The notes below the pieces were generated by a model. The model saw only the letters and a program-made list of their open reading frames with translations. It was not told where the DNA came from and made no database searches. This document shows, piece after piece, positions 46,922 to 53,638 of a DNA stretch of 64,000 bases. The position numbers were made by a program, and so were the translations under genes. The DNA is from a virus. The stretch lies in IMG/VR virus record IMGVR_UViG_3300027833_000012, positions 112,257 to 176,256 of that record. The stretch is one strand, 5' to 3'. Every line of letters begins with the position of its first letter. Within the stretch, counting starts at the first letter, position 1.

Positions 46922-49390
46922 TTATAGTGGGTTTGGGTTCAATTTACCACCTCCAATGGCCATTCTAACTTCTTCCTGTATCTTAGTCGTAATATCTCTA
47001 ATAAACTCTCTATCGTTAGATAAACCATCTCCAATCGTGTCTAACCAAGAACTATCAGACTTGATATTTATATTTATGTTTAAATCGTTAAATTTATGTA
47101 ACATTTTACCATCAACACTAGAATTACCACCACCAGTTATAGCTTTAGCCAAATCTTTATTCCCGTTAACATTAGTACCAGCAATCATAGTATTATCATC
47201 AACGTTCATAAATTTATCATTACCATGAAATTGTATAACACCATCTTTAACTTGAGTTGCCTTTTGTTTAGTGTCACCAAATATAACATCACCAGAAGCG
47301 TCACCTATTTTATCACCAGCTAAACCACCAGCAATACCACCAATCAAACCACCAATAGCTGTACCAACACCTGGGAATACCATAGTTCCAATTGTAGCAC
47401 CTAAAGCCGCACCTCCCCATGCACCACCTCCAGAAGCTAAAGCTCTAACACCAGTCCTACCTACATTCTCACCAGTATCCATACCATTTTCTTTATTAGT
47501 AGTGTATTCATCGTATCCACTAATACCAGCTGATAATACACCAGCACCAGCACCACCAATCCCTTTAGCGAATTTTAACATTTTACCACCTTTACTTGCA
47601 ATTCCACCTCCAGCAGATGCAACACCACCTCCAGCAGATGCTACTGTATTAAACCCCATACCTAATTGTACCCCATTAGCGTACCATTTAATCGCACTAC
47701 CGAGTAAAGAAAGTCCTAGTGTACTTATAGCAGTAATCAATGGGTTATCAATCATAAAACCACCTACAGTACCAATAATATCAGCAGCAGTCTTACCGAA
47801 GTCCTCTATTTTTTTAAAAACCTCTTTATCCTTAAGCATTGTCATGAAATCTTTTAAAGGTTTTTCCAAACCAGATTGTAAACCTCTAGCAAATGGTAGT
47901 AATGTAGATTTAAAAATATCTCCCATATTTTTAATAATATCATCAAATGTCTCACCATTTTTAGCTCTTTCAGCAAGTGTTTCTTTTTGGTTTTTATAAT
48001 CATCAAGTATAGCGTCATTTAACTCACTAATCTTTAGTGGGTCATTTGTACCTAATCTAACAACAGCTTCACCATCTTTATTAATCTGAGCTAAAGATGC
48101 TACTAATTCTCTATCTTCATCATCTACAATTGAACTAGATACCATTGAACCAAATCTTTCAATCTTTTTTTGTTGTACAGCCATTTCCTGTAATTTCTCA
48201 ACAGCAATACCAGTAGTATTTGAAATCTCACGCATCCTATCAGCGGCCAAACCACCTTGAATTTCAAAAGAATTTGTTTCTTTATTATAACTTACAAATT
48301 CAGCTGTTGCTTTACCTATATCTTTTGCAAAACCAGCAAAATCATTTCTAGCTTTAAACATTAATTGCATAGGGTCACCTAACTTTGCGAATTCACCACC
48401 CATAACTTGTAATTTAGCAGCCATCTCAACAGCACCTTCTGGTCTAAAAACTTTTTCAGCTAATCCAGAAATACCATCCATATCTAATTTAAGTCTAGCA
48501 GCTTCATTAGCCATTTTAGCTAAACCAGCAACCCCACCTTTAAATGTAAATCTCTGAGCTAACCTTAAATTCTTTTGTAGGTTTTTAACAGCCTTATCTG
48601 AGTTAACACCCATTTTAGCGGCAGTTTGAACAGTCTCTTCCACTAAGTCTCTAGAACCAGTTACAGACATACCAAATTTATCCATTTCAGAAGCCATCAT
48701 AGCAGCACCTTCAGCACCTAAACCAGTACCCTTAGCCATCTCACCTATTGCCACTAAACCTTCTTCACTTAGAATTACTGACCTACCTATCTCTTCAGAA
48801 TAACTTTGTTGTGCTTTAGCTAAATCTTTAGTTTGGATACCCCAATCATAAGTAGTCTTAGATGCAGTATTTATGTTATCTGCAAATCCATCAGAATTAG
48901 CCTTAACAATATTCATACTTTTACCACTATCCCTTATAGCTTTATCAACTTCAAAAATACCAGTACTTTTTAATTTACCATAACCTGATTTAATTAATCC
49001 TGGTGTGGCCTTAAGACCCTTTTGGATACTATTCCAACCCAAAGCTAATTTATTAACACTACCAACCTGTGTTGCTAATTCTTTAGTAGCATCTTCTTGA
49101 ACTTTAAGATTTGCTTTATTACTTTTTAATATCTTTTTTAAAGCCTTTGCTTTTTGTTTATTATCAGAAATTTCTTGTTTTGATAATCCTAAAGTATTAT
49201 TCTTTAAATCAGAAATTTCTTTTTCTAAAAGCTTGTTTTGTTCTTTAATGAAATTAATATTTTTTTCAGCCTCACCAATATCTTTAACCGCTTTTAAATA
49301 CTTACTTGCATCTTCAGTTAAATCTTTTTGTAGTTTAGCATTTTCCTGTAAACTTTTTTTCCACTTATTGAATTCTTTATTGCTATCCAT
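46922..49390 (-). CDS. Tail tape measure protein
   Basis: This 822-aa protein sets tail length. The first 110 residues are a charged coiled coil (KLLEKEISDLKN, ALKKILKSNKANLK). A helical middle and a Gly/Ala-rich hydrophobic stretch (about residues 540-710, with GGAGAGVLSAG, GGAALGATIGT and GGLIGGIAGGLAG) follow; the latter is typical of segments that insert into the host membrane. The C-terminal 70 residues (NINININIKSD...) probably contact the tail tip. The gene lies just after the gp26-like and 454-aa genes, as expected. At about 1.5 angstroms per residue the length predicts a tail near 120 nm, an estimate only. Confidence 0.88.
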   Translation of the reverse strand: MDSNKEFNKWKKSLQENAKLQKDLTEDASKYLKAVKDIGEAEKNINFIKEQNKLLEKEISDLKNNTLGLSKQEISDNKQKAKALKKILKSNKANLKVQEDATKELATQVGSVNKLALGWNSIQKGLKATPGLIKSGYGKLKSTGIFEVDKAIRDSGKSMNIVKANSDGFADNINTASKTTYDWGIQTKDLAKAQQSYSEEIGRSVILSEEGLVAIGEMAKGTGLGAEGAAMMASEMDKFGMSVTGSRDLVEETVQTAAKMGVNSDKAVKNLQKNLRLAQRFTFKGGVAGLAKMANEAARLKLDMDGISGLAEKVFRPEGAVEMAAKLQVMGGEFAKLGDPMQLMFKARNDFAGFAKDIGKATAEFVSYNKETNSFEIQGGLAADRMREISNTTGIAVEKLQEMAVQQKKIERFGSMVSSSIVDDEDRELVASLAQINKDGEAVVRLGTNDPLKISELNDAILDDYKNQKETLAERAKNGETFDDIIKNMGDIFKSTLLPFARGLQSGLEKPLKDFMTMLKDKEVFKKIEDFGKTAADIIGTVGGFMIDNPLITAISTLGLSLLGSAIKWYANGVQLGMGFNTVASAGGGVASAGGGIASKGGKMLKFAKGIGGAGAGVLSAGISGYDEYTTNKENGMDTGENVGRTGVRALASGGGAWGGAALGATIGTMVFPGVGTAIGGLIGGIAGGLAGDKIGDASGDVIFGDTKQKATQVKDGVIQFHGNDKFMNVDDNTMIAGTNVNGNKDLAKAITGGGNSSVDGKMLHKFNDLNININIKSDSSWLDTIGDGLSNDREFIRDITTKIQEEVRMAIGGGKLNPNPL

Positions 49391-49394
49391 AATA

Positions 49395-50759
49395 TTAATC
49401 TACGTAAACTTTAACTTCTCTCTTTTCTTTATATTTTTCATCACCAATAAACATAATGACTTCACATTCATAAATATTCTCATCTGCGTTTTTTAAAGAT
49501 AATAAATTAATTTTATGTGGACCATTCTTATTAACTTTAAGACTTTTTATTAAAACACCAGTTAAAGACCTTTTTATAACCTTACCAAAATATTTTTCAC
49601 CTTCATATAATTTAACATTATTTTTTACGAAGTATTTATTAGTTAATTCATATCTAACTTCCATATTAACCCTGTACAATTCTTTAAAGGTATGTGGTTC
49701 AGACCCGTCAATAATATCACCACTTCTAGAATTAAAATATTTTGTAAGTATGTTTTGTAAAGCAAAAAAACCTTGAGGGTTTTTACCAGTTATTAAATCC
49801 CAAAAAGTAGGTTTTTTTGAAAAAGCATTTCTTAAGTTTGGACTTTGTAACGCTAGTTTCATTGCTTCACTTTTACTTAACTTTTTAACCTCACCTTCTA
49901 CTGAATCTTTATCATTTTTAAATTCTTTTTCTTCAGGTGATACATTTGATTCATCAAAAGCTACAATACCGTTAATTGTAAATGGTTCTTTATTTTTTTC
50001 ACCATCATCATTAGTGGTATTTAAATACCTATTCATCTTTATTGTGAATTTATAAGAATCGTTAGAAGTGTCTAACTCAACATTTTCAGTTGAAGCATCG
50101 AACTCTAAGTCAGAATCAACCAATTCACTGTAACCCCTAGCACCCTTACCCTTAGTTGTAACTAACTCTAGGTTTGTAAATTTTGAACCAGAATTAATAA
50201 CAGTAAAATACAATTCACTATCATCATCTAATGTGAATTTATAACTACTACCATCTTTCATAGAGTTTAATTCTCTAACTAATTCCTCTAACTCTGGTGT
50301 GACTTCTTTTTTATCATCAACTTTATTATCAGCTTTATTATCAGCTTCTTCTTCAGGGTCTATAATATCTATTGTAGTTTTAGGATTTTTAAGTTTGTCG
50401 TAAATTTCTATTTTTTCTATATTACGCTCTTTCTTTTCATTCCATTGTCTTACATCCCCAATTTTACTAAGTTCTTTTTGTTTATGGATGTATTTTACAG
50501 TTAATTCATTACCTATTAAATCGCTAGGTGTGAAAAAATAAATGTTATTACTATTTACTGTACCAATATCAACACTTTCCATTCTAACTTGGTTTCCAAC
50601 ATTATCTAATACCCTAAATTTTAGTTGATTCGCATTTTCTTTAGTTATAACGATTATATCACCCTTATCTAAATTAGGAACAACTTTATTTATTTTATCT
50701 TCTAAAATTAAAGATTCTATTAATTTTAATTGGTTTTCATTTATTTTTATCTTTCTCAT
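49395..50759 (-). CDS. Unknown protein between tail assembly protein and tape measure
   Basis: This 454-aa protein begins MRKIKINENQLKLIESLILE, a short amphipathic helix. Beta-type stretches follow, then an acidic Lys/Asp-rich linker near 145 (EEEADNKADNKVDDKKE). A middle part is Thr/Ser/Asp-rich, a helical part follows (NLRNAFSKKPTFWDLITGKN, then GFFALQNILTKYFNS), and a strand-rich end closes it. It lies four bases before the tape measure gene. A tail assembly or tape-measure partner is possible. No enzymatic motif was recognised. Confidence 0.45.
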   Translation of the reverse strand: MRKIKINENQLKLIESLILEDKINKVVPNLDKGDIIVITKENANQLKFRVLDNVGNQVRMESVDIGTVNSNNIYFFTPSDLIGNELTVKYIHKQKELSKIGDVRQWNEKKERNIEKIEIYDKLKNPKTTIDIIDPEEEADNKADNKVDDKKEVTPELEELVRELNSMKDGSSYKFTLDDDSELYFTVINSGSKFTNLELVTTKGKGARGYSELVDSDLEFDASTENVELDTSNDSYKFTIKMNRYLNTTNDDGEKNKEPFTINGIVAFDESNVSPEEKEFKNDKDSVEGEVKKLSKSEAMKLALQSPNLRNAFSKKPTFWDLITGKNPQGFFALQNILTKYFNSRSGDIIDGSEPHTFKELYRVNMEVRYELTNKYFVKNNVKLYEGEKYFGKVIKRSLTGVLIKSLKVNKNGPHKINLLSLKNADENIYECEVIMFIGDEKYKEKREVKVYVD

Positions 50760-50791: not shown

Positions 50792-50827
50792 AACAAAAAA
50801 AATACCTAACAGATTAGCTAGGTATTT
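50792..50827 (-). terminator. Intrinsic terminator after the frameshift extension frame
   Basis: On the minus strand AAATACCTA and TAGGTATTT form a 9-bp stem with a 10-nt loop, followed directly by a run of eight T and more T. The stop codon of the second-frame ORF (50814) lies in the loop. It ends the sheath-tube-gp26-like unit before the 454-aa gene. Confidence 0.85.
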
Positions 50828-51086
50828 CTCCATTTTTTAATTTACTCTTAAGCATTTGCCCACTAACCCTAGTATTTCTACTACCCTTTGAGTTACTACT
50901 TGTTGATTTATTCGATTGTTCCTCCATCACCTCTTTTTTCCTCTCATTTTCATTCATAAAAAGTTGAAGGTAATATCTTCTCTCATGGGTTGGCATACTA
51001 AGTATATCTTGGTAACCAAAACCTAAGTGTTTTGTACATGCATATATCTCTTCTAATAAGAATTTCTTATAAGATGGTGTCAGGCC
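50814..51086 (-). CDS. Second-frame extension of the gp26-like tail assembly protein (frameshift ORF)
   Basis: From the T7 run at 51087-51093 a second frame stays open for 90 residues (GLTPSYKKFLLEEIYACTKH, then LGFGYQDILSMPTHERRYYL) down to the stop at 50814. It has no ATG before 50996, yet the part upstream of that ATG reads like a real folded protein continuous with the rest. The FGL.P.Y...L.EEIY pattern followed by MP..ERR resembles the C-terminal extensions of tail assembly chaperones. It is best read as the downstream part of a frameshift fusion of about 482 aa. Internal initiation at 50996 would give a 60-aa protein instead. Confidence 0.7.
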   Translation of the reverse strand, partial: GLTPSYKKFLLEEIYACTKHLGFGYQDILSMPTHERRYYLQLFMNENERKKEVMEEQSNKSTSSNSKGSRNTRVSGQMLKSKLKNGEIPS

Positions 51087-52263
51087 AAAAAAAGTTGAGG
51101 TTAAGGGGAAGAAACGTTTTTATAGACCCACCTCCAGGAGTCTTAACATCGATTCTTAAATCAATGCCACATTCAAGCGTCTGAACAAATGCTCTTAGCT
51201 TTTGAACTTCTAGAGTTCTAATATTTTTAACATATTCTGAAATAAACCCTTTATCTCTATTACCATCAACTTCCACTATTTGACTTTCAAGAACATAAGT
51301 GTTTTCATTATTAATTAATTCTCCAGAATCCTTATCATCCTCTATTAATTTCTCAATAGCCTCAACCTCACCAACATTAAGTAATTTAATTTTCAATTGT
51401 GTTCCACTTAAAGGCATTTTAAAATCAAATAAACCTTCAGAATCTGGGTCAGCCTCTAACTCAACAGTTTTTAACTCATTTAAATCAACTATAGTATCAA
51501 ATGGTATACCATTTTTATCTGTAACTTGAATAGGGTATTTTTCACCGTAACCAGTAGCTCTAAGCCATATCATAATAGCATTCCTATCACCAGTATGTAA
51601 ATCTTTATAACGTAAACCTGGTTCTAATAATTTTCTATTAATTAAAATTTCAAGAAAATCACCACTTTCAATCAAATTAGGTGATGTAAGTATATTTTCA
51701 TCAGCCGTTGTAAGGTAAGCAACCTTAACAGATTTTTTCTTATTTGGATAAGTTTTTCCTCTAGACGGTAAAGGAATAACATCAAAAGCTTGATTCATTT
51801 GTGGTTGACTTATTTTCTCAATGTAAGGGTCGTAATCAACAACCTTTTCTTCTTTAGTATATTGAGTTGTACTAACTTGCCTCTCCACAACATCCGAGCT
51901 TCTCATATTAGTTGAATTCTCAACATAATTAGCTTCATCTCCATAAGCATATGGGTTTGAATTTGCTCTTGGTTTTTCACTTTCTTTCTTCTTAGTAAAT
52001 CTCCTATCAATTTCTTCAGCTTTAAGTTGGTCTTGTTTCAACTTTTCCTCACGAATCCTAATTTGCTCTTCAGTATTTTTTTTCATCTGTAAAGCCGCTG
52101 ACTCTTCACCAGAAGAAATAGTCCCACTATAATCACCTTTAGATATTCTTTCCCTATTTTCTTCCTCATATTGTCTAGCAATCCTAGTACCATTCTCATT
52201 AGCCTGGTTAATCATATTACTACTATTATTTTTAGGAAATACGTTTGGTTTTTTTTCACTCAT
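51067..52263 (-). CDS. T4 gp26-like baseplate/tail assembly protein, zero-frame product
   Basis: This 398-aa protein has a disordered, highly charged N-terminal 150 residues (repeated Glu/Lys/Arg, RIREEKLKQDQLK). The folded C-terminal domain follows the T4_baseplate family plan: FDVIPLPSRGKTYPNKK, LTTADENILTSPNLI, GDFLEILINRK, then LHTGDRNAIMIWLRATGYG and later a small beta domain. It sits between tail tube and tape measure, the universal site of tail assembly chaperones. The gene ends at 51067 a few codons after a seven-T run that probably shifts ribosomes into the 50814-51086 frame. It would bind the tape measure during tail assembly. Confidence 0.7.
   Translation of the reverse strand: MSEKKPNVFPKNNSSNMINQANENGTRIARQYEEENRERISKGDYSGTISSGEESAALQMKKNTEEQIRIREEKLKQDQLKAEEIDRRFTKKKESEKPRANSNPYAYGDEANYVENSTNMRSSDVVERQVSTTQYTKEEKVVDYDPYIEKISQPQMNQAFDVIPLPSRGKTYPNKKKSVKVAYLTTADENILTSPNLIESGDFLEILINRKLLEPGLRYKDLHTGDRNAIMIWLRATGYGEKYPIQVTDKNGIPFDTIVDLNELKTVELEADPDSEGLFDFKMPLSGTQLKIKLLNVGEVEAIEKLIEDDKDSGELINNENTYVLESQIVEVDGNRDKGFISEYVKNIRTLEVQKLRAFVQTLECGIDLRIDVKTPGGGSIKTFLPLNLNFFWPDTIL
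51087..51093 (-). other. Probable programmed frameshift site (seven-T run)
   Basis: On the minus strand the zero frame reads AAC TTT TTT TGG CCT and ends seven codons after the T run at 51067. Moving +1 (or -2) on the T run gives TTT GGC CTG ACA and joins the 90-residue second frame. A one-base sequencing error in the homopolymer is the alternative, so raw reads should be checked. Confidence 0.6.
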
Positions 52264-52375: not shown

Positions 52376-53101
52376 ATGTTAAATAAAGAAAATAATTTTT
52401 GGTTCATAGGTGACACACATGGTAATCATAAGTTAATTATGTATGAAATAAAACAAAAAGACATAAAAAATGTTGATATGTTTCATGTTGGTGATTTTGG
52501 TGTAGGTTTTACTAGTGATTCAAATGAACAGGACCAATTAAATTATTTTAATGGTTTTTTAAAGAAAAGGGGTATAAATTTACATGTTTTTCGTGGTAAT
52601 CATGATAACCCAGATTACTTTAAAGGTAAACATATATTTTCTAATTTAAAATTACATGAAGATTATACTGTATTAGAAATTGAAGGTAAAAAAATACTAG
52701 GTGTTGGTGGTGGTATCAGTATTGACCGTGAACCTAGGAAATTAAACCATAAAAAAATTACATGGTGGGAAGACGAGATTTTTATTTTAGACGAAGATAA
52801 AATAAATGAAATAAGTGGTGTTGATATTTTAATAACCCATACAGCACCATCTTTTTTACCACCAATTAATGCGGATGGTAATTTTCCTTGGATTGTTAAA
52901 CAGTTCGTACCTGATGACCCTAACCTTTTACATGACTTAATTAATGAACGTGAAAATTTAAGTGAGTTACTTCTTTTATTAGAGGATAAAAATAATATAA
53001 AACACCATTTTTATGGTCACTTTCATAGTAATTATATGACATTAATTGATGGTTGTGTACATATATGTTTAGAAATAGGTCAATTTTATGAGTTAAAATA
53101 A
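52376..53101 (+). CDS. Calcineurin-like metallophosphoesterase (plus-strand accessory gene)
   Basis: This 241-aa protein has the full metallophosphoesterase signature: Asp13 and His15 in FIGDTHGNH, Asp40 in HVGDFG, Asn75-His76 in RGNHDN, His155 in ILITHTAP, and His215/His217 in FYGHFHSN. These bind two metal ions and hydrolyse phosphoester bonds in nucleotides, nucleic acids or proteins; the substrate here is unknown. It is the only large plus-strand gene, has its own promoter and bidirectional terminator, and interrupts the tube/gp26-like order. That is the layout of a 'moron' gene. Host-takeover or anti-defence roles are possible but unproven. Confidence 0.9.
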   Translation: MLNKENNFWFIGDTHGNHKLIMYEIKQKDIKNVDMFHVGDFGVGFTSDSNEQDQLNYFNGFLKKRGINLHVFRGNHDNPDYFKGKHIFSNLKLHEDYTVLEIEGKKILGVGGGISIDREPRKLNHKKITWWEDEIFILDEDKINEISGVDILITHTAPSFLPPINADGNFPWIVKQFVPDDPNLLHDLINERENLSELLLLLEDKNNIKHHFYGHFHSNYMTLIDGCVHICLEIGQFYELK

Positions 53102-53149: not shown

Positions 53150-53638
53150 TTAGAATAAAAGTATTGCTCTATCGAAACGTAAATCAGCTGTAATATCAGC
53201 TATTGAATCGTCATCCATAGATAAGTCTCCAAAATTAACTGTTGTAAGCATAGTACCTTGAAGTACCCATTTCTCAATAACAACTCCAGTAGGGTCTAAC
53301 ATTTCAACTTCGATATCTTTTTTATATCCAGCCGCATAACCTTGTCTACCAGTTATAGATTCAGATTGTAAACGAACCCATTCCATAATTGCTTGAGCCG
53401 CAGAAGGACCAATAGGGTCTCTAAACGTTACAGAAATTGCTTCCCAAGTAAATCTACCTATTACCCAAGTAGATGTGTTAAGGAACGGTATTTCTACCTC
53501 ATTTTGATTAATTGATGGTCTAGAAGCAGAAGCTAACCACCATTCTTGAATACCTAATTCTGCTGGAAACCTTAAAAGCCATCTATTCTTTCTTTTTGGT
53601 TCATAAGGTACGGGCATTTTCATTAGTAAATCAGCCAT
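53150..53638 (-). CDS. Tail tube protein (gp19-like)
   Basis: This 162-aa protein matches the tail tube family of T4-like phages. Signs are the start LLMKMPVPYEPKRKNRWLLR, the block WLASASRPSINQNEVEIPF, TSTWVIGRFTWEAISVTFRD and the end DLRFDRAILLF. T4 gp19 is 163 aa. It stacks as hexamers inside the sheath and conducts DNA. It directly follows the sheath gene with an 80-bp gap that holds a hairpin, and is followed by a bidirectional terminator, so it can be expressed at a higher level than its neighbours. No signal or membrane segment, as expected. Confidence 0.9.
   Translation of the reverse strand: MADLLMKMPVPYEPKRKNRWLLRFPAELGIQEWWLASASRPSINQNEVEIPFLNTSTWVIGRFTWEAISVTFRDPIGPSAAQAIMEWVRLQSESITGRQGYAAGYKKDIEVEMLDPTGVVIEKWVLQGTMLTTVNFGDLSMDDDSIADITADLRFDRAILLF

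Follow-up and report, generated by a model that had tools for sequence, protein, structure and literature searches.

Tail assembly chaperones made by frameshifting are, as a kind, already known. Among the programmed shifts of phages, +1 is rare beside -1, and most known +1 shifts depend on a stop codon or a starved codon. Vladimirov, Gautam and Davidson (2022) reportedly identified the tail assembly chaperone (TAC) genes of T4-like phages; they are said to have proposed that T4 gene 26 is TAC-N and gene 51 TAC-NC, and to have found shifts in several other T4-like groups. In phage lambda, the tail assembly chaperones gpG and gpGT are the short and long forms (reviewed in PMC5009743). PMC10885494 and PMC12846349 both cite the 2022 T4-like work, the latter for poly-T -1 sites in T4-like TAC-N genes, whereas the phase at the locus described here is +1. 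The TAC genes of Vandenendeviridae and Andersonviridae use a -1 shift at a GTTTTT motif (PMC12846349). Outside tail genes, CUU_U is the tetranucleotide of prfB (PMC10885494), and peptide analysis of the influenza PA-X site, UUU_CGU, gave +1 and no -2 peptide (PMC3498833).

We analysed a window of 64,000 nucleotides, part of a 187,484-base virus record whose T4-like tail genes include sheath, tube, tape measure and baseplate wedge. With a probability of about 0.85, we read one of its loci as a T4-like phage TAC locus at which ribosomes would slip +1 at UUU_U, yielding a TAC-NC fusion beside the short TAC-N. The features of this locus are as follows.

51067..52263, minus strand: TAC-N, putative gp26-like tail assembly chaperone ORF, 398 aa, 0 frame (PF12322 T4_baseplate, phrog_150)
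51124..51143, minus strand: RNA hairpin, arms AGACUC / GGGUCU, loop CUGGAGGU (covariation in the window's clade)
51107..51114, minus strand: near-invariant UUUCUUCC element, at -21..-14 from the T run
51087..51093, minus strand: T7 run of the slip site, TTT TTT TGG in the 0 frame
51088..51090 to 51087..51089, minus strand: proposed re-pairing of the P-site codon
51085..51087, minus strand: putative A-site codon TGG (Trp) in the 0 frame; after a +1 shift GGC (Gly) would be read
51080..51082, minus strand: TGA in the -1 frame, directly 3' of the T run within CCT[A/G]AC
51067..51069, minus strand: 0-frame stop TAA
50814..51119, minus strand: open +1 frame, with its stop at 50814..50816
GGC at 51086 to 50817, minus strand: TAC-C, gp51/DUF6760-like, 90 aa
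Predicted fusion of TAC-N and TAC-C: 482 aa

The initial annotation had described a 398-aa gp26-like frame that ends just past a run of seven T, followed by a second frame of 90 residues without ATG for its first 30 codons, and both descriptions hold. The TAC-N ORF ends in CTC AAC TTT TTT TGG CCT GAC ACC ATC TTA TAA, and its protein in N F F W P D T I L *. The +1 frame is open from 51119 and, after the two Phe of the T run, encodes 90 residues starting FFGLTPSYKKFLLEEIYACTKHLGFGYQDILSMPTHERRYYL; its first ATG, at 50996, lies 30 codons beyond the run. Of 20,000 mononucleotide shuffles, one left all 101 codons of this frame free of stops. Among the window's 29 large CDSs, in-frame TTTTTTTGG or TTTCTTTGG occurs only at the TAC-N junction.

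TAC-N matched PF12322, the T4 gp26 family, over residues 172-380 with 33.3 bits (curated Pfam cut-off 24.5), and also matched phrog_150. TAC-C scored 23 bits against DUF6760 (PF20546; E 8e-5), which is below the cut-off of 27, and matched gp51 weakly (phrog_634, E 0.15); an NCBIfam search gave no match. The pair had been placed exactly between the tail tube and tape measure genes. It is flanked by both (tube at 53150..53638, tape measure at 46922..49390), but not immediately, as two further ORFs intervene: a divergent ORF at 52376..53101 (+) on the tube side and a 454-aa ORF at 49395..50759 on the tape measure side. By eye, the divergent ORF resembles a calcineurin-like phosphoesterase. In phage immuto, the gene before the chaperone locus is annotated as tail completion protein, and the tape measure gene comes after the locus; in Mel-JY01, the locus comes after the tube gene. 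Because of its position, two-frame layout and family, we assign the window's locus to a probable tail assembly chaperone that has two forms, the short TAC-N and the long TAC-NC.

Like lambda gpG/gpGT, the locus lies between tube and tape measure genes, has overlapping frames for a short and a long form, and would shift close to where the first frame ends. The lambda shift is -1, whereas here the second frame is in +1 phase and the -1 frame is closed by TRA; the first domain here is of the T4 gp26 (PF12322) type. In T4 itself, the gp26 family is shared and the short C-terminal domain of gp51 resembles by eye the extension described here, but genes 26 and 51 are whole and stand on opposite strands, with no shift. 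The TAC genes of Vandenendeviridae and Andersonviridae likewise have a conserved poly-T site at the end of TAC-N and a start-less second frame, with a -1 shift there as against +1 here.

When the window's proteins were compared directly with cultured phages by tblastn, matches were weak or absent, and relatives were therefore drawn from IMG/VR: 80 matches to the ORF (41-62% identity), followed by profile and distant-member queries. Cultured phages and bacterial bins supplied further relatives. The junction peptide was among the patterns of the first IMG/VR search, in which degenerate patterns leave TTT versus TTC free; later searches for relatives used patterns lying elsewhere in the protein. 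For the most distant homologues, the profile held no stretch conserved enough for searching, and a search of bacterial genomes with the TAC-N of Bacillus phage SP-15 found nothing. Each distinct junction was counted once (n=171); many come from related uncultivated phages, and the counts are not of independent events. In 169 of the 171, the downstream domain lies in +1 phase and has no start of its own, and the overlap of the two frames is open across the site. Phages of Bacteroidota, Firmicutes and cyanobacteria hold the junction, and the cultured isolates with a T-run version include Mel-JY01 and RM378, the reference Far-T4 phage (PMC4360716). The comparison across related phages thus supports a programmed shift that joins the gp26-like TAC-N to TAC-C, as the initial annotation had proposed. 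Its view that a gp26-like domain fused in this way is an unusual version was only partly right, as a shifted gp26-like chaperone is usual in this large T4-like lineage.

The slip site reads TTT TTT TGG in 129 junctions, TTT CTT TGG in 18, among them that of immuto, a phage of Flavobacterium sp. LMO8, and TTC TTT TGG in 12; TTT TTT TTC (three) and TTT TTT CGC (two) are rarer. TTT CTA TGG, TTT CTT TAC and TTT CTA TTC occur once each, as do two sites in cultured phages, TTT TTT CAC in SP-15 and TTC TTT CGT in Streptococcus phage SagM-GXN1. Between sister phages in a quick tree, CUU sites and UUU sites replace each other (L130/L167). Within the window's clade, T7GGCCT is unchanged in all 67 junctions, none having a run of six T, and TTTTTTTGGCCT is invariant as well. 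The base 5' of T7 is never T in these 67 junctions, which disfavours tandem -1 slippage. Right after the run, a TRA closes the -1 frame in nearly all junctions and would end any -1 product.

Codon variability in the same 67 junctions locates the switch. Up to the T run, the most variable position is position 3 of the 0 frame; from the first base past the run, it is position 3 of the +1 frame. Judged by this pattern, the selected reading frame changes exactly at the T run. Among the ~19 codons that lead up to the run, many are seldom used elsewhere in the gene (CTC, CCC, TCC, GCC, ACC, GGG), which suggests a constraint on the RNA in addition to that on the protein.

We worked out the P-site re-pairing options by hand. 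At all 10 site types, a P-site Phe or Leu tRNA can re-pair in the +1 position (UUU to UUU or UUC, CUU to UUU). That UUU_U, UUU_C and CUU_U variants all re-pair at +1 favours P-site +1 slippage with an open A site, and narrows to +1 a direction that had been given as +1/-2. A -2 ribosomal shift at the same site, of the kind documented for phage Mu (PMC5009743), would add one extra Phe and leave the downstream phase identical, and its re-pairing is also perfect at TTT TTT TGG; but it needs a P-site mismatch at TTC TTT TGG, TTC TTT CGT, TTT CTA TGG and TTT CTA TTC, where +1 re-pairing is perfect, and we consider it unlikely. Somewhat less probable again is transcriptional slippage, in which the polymerase would drop one U or add two within T7 and so give a fraction of in-frame fusion mRNA. 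The seven-T run that this calls for is present in 129 junctions, whereas TTTCTTTGG (18 junctions), TTCTTTTGG, TTCTTTCGT, TTTCTATGG and TTTCTATTC keep the phase unchanged without a long homopolymer. Seven T is, moreover, shorter than typical transcriptional slippage runs.

Two separate proteins, the downstream frame starting by itself, for example at ATG 50996 by reinitiation, would fit the L189 and L194 junctions, where an ATG-started second ORF stands beside the first stop, and the public annotation of Mel-JY01, which has a separate ORF. However, the 30 codons ahead of the ATG are under protein selection in the +1 frame and include the invariant FFGL, nucleotide conservation extends over the slip site and the stretch preceding it, and the separate-ORF state is nested and derived. 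What the relatives have is thus a strongly conserved pre-ATG region, and not an ATG-started second gene with nothing conserved before it; we regard separate proteins as very improbable. The least credible reading is that the gene is a pseudogene, or the junction an artefact of sequencing or assembly. Homopolymers are where single-base errors classically arise, but the same junction recurs in 129 distinct sequences, including those of the cultured RM378 and Mel-JY01, and other isolates with non-homopolymer sites keep the same phase. This conservation makes sequencing error untenable, and we treat it as excluded for practical purposes. The overlapping genes are very probably a real and ancient switch for two forms of a tail-assembly helper.

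Under +1 slippage, the majority of ribosomes would stop at TAA and release the 398-aa gp26-like short form. A minority would slip at UUU_U, the P-site peptidyl-tRNA-Phe moving from 51090..51088 to 51089..51087 with the A-site codon UGG still undecoded, and would read GGC next. The predicted product is a TAC-NC of 482 aa (~54 kDa) that carries the 90-residue gp51/DUF6760-like TAC-C. If the lambda gpG/gpGT model carries over, coating of the tape measure protein would fall to the short form, and recruitment of tail tube subunits to the long one.

The P-site tetranucleotide is of the prfB type (UUU_U here, CUU_U in the 18 TTTCTTTGG junctions), and UUC_UUU_CGU of SagM-GXN1 contains the UUU_CGU of influenza PA-X. 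As at E. coli prfB (RF2) and PA-X, CUU_U or UUU_C in the P site can re-pair by +1. Unlike in those systems, the A site here holds no stop codon (UGG, CGN, CAC and others), and the gene serves tail assembly, where theirs encode a release factor and a host-shutoff protein. In place of the UGA and the Shine-Dalgarno sequence 3 nt upstream that mark prfB, this site has UGG, with CUUAACCUCAAC directly before the T run and no Shine-Dalgarno just ahead of it. UGG is not rare in the window phage (8.5 per 1000), which also encodes its own tRNA-Trp, so that stimulation by a rare Trp codon in a 'hungry A site' is a weak argument here.

An RNA hairpin lies 31-50 nt 5' of the T run and covaries in the window's clade. 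The two arms of one sequence form a more stable stem than arms combined across sequences (mean energy -8.33 vs -6.50), and in a permutation test that corrected only in part for relatedness, 0 of 2000 were as good. Over 26 sequences, again with relatedness corrected only in part, 92.3% of cells pair and 9 double changes are seen, as against 2.8 in shuffles; sliding the partner destroys the pairing. In a subset of sequences, the stem is retained one position out of register, as GGAACC/GGUUCC. The hairpin loop GGAGG could pair with UUUCUUCC to form a pseudoknot ending ~14 nt before the T run, a short way behind a ribosome positioned on the slip site; the bases involved hardly vary, so covariation says nothing on this pairing. 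The hairpin, possibly as a pseudoknot, may refold behind the ribosome and favour its forward movement. A prfB-like Shine-Dalgarno role for GGAGGU was considered and set aside, as it lies ~40 nt upstream, too far, and we treat it as the hairpin loop. No covarying upstream hairpin was found in a second, immuto-like clade, and the element is therefore not a universal stimulator. A search for a downstream stimulatory structure found none.

It is possible, and we put it forward tentatively as something short of probable, that a +1 shift with a sense A-site codon is the ancestral route to TAC-NC in a very large T4-like lineage, of the Far-T4 kind and beyond, driven in the window's clade by an upstream hairpin or pseudoknot that refolds behind the ribosome and pushes it.

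The remaining two of the 171 junctions, L189:3227 and L194:3215, encode TAC-C in an ORF of its own, which begins with ATG directly behind the TAC-N stop and is in the other phase. In the quick tree they form one clade nested among TTTCTTTGG phages, and the separate ORF is therefore best taken as a derived loss of the shift. This lineage reads as one that lost the shift and split the gene.

In the literature consulted, which covers the 2022 T4-like TAC study through the papers citing it, we found no description of the +1 direction, of the sense A-site codon UGG, of the junction's breadth across phages or of the upstream hairpin. The set assembled here makes available more than 160 natural versions of one +1 junction in ten slip-codon combinations, together with an upstream RNA element that covaries in one clade and a lineage with a split gene, so that the rules of +1 slippage can be tested directly. 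It also corrects annotation. TAC-C has been missed or miscalled in immuto (L091), SP-15 (L199) and Mel-JY01 (L092), whose public annotations lack the fusion and have in its place a short hypothetical ORF or two hypothetical proteins.

A few further observations concern the surroundings of such loci. A WOR-3 chromosome bin (L214, CP070664.1) holds a sheath, tube, chaperone and tape measure set with a TTT TTT TGG junction; the set adjoins a DNA polymerase-like ORF with N gaps, and may be a prophage or a mis-joined phage. The window's record has ~40 tRNA genes (loci L217, L218, L220 and L221), among them Phe, Trp and one whose anticodon is CTA, which ARAGORN labels tRNA-Pyl. It also encodes a tmRNA, the tag being DNSFDIDVNFLENASVEVESGEVAFA. 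Of the window's 29 large ORFs, 3 still end in TAG. At the end of the +1 frame (50794..50830, minus strand), an inverted repeat, ATACCTAGC / GTTAGGTAT, followed by a T run, resembles an intrinsic terminator ahead of the 454-aa ORF and the tape measure gene.
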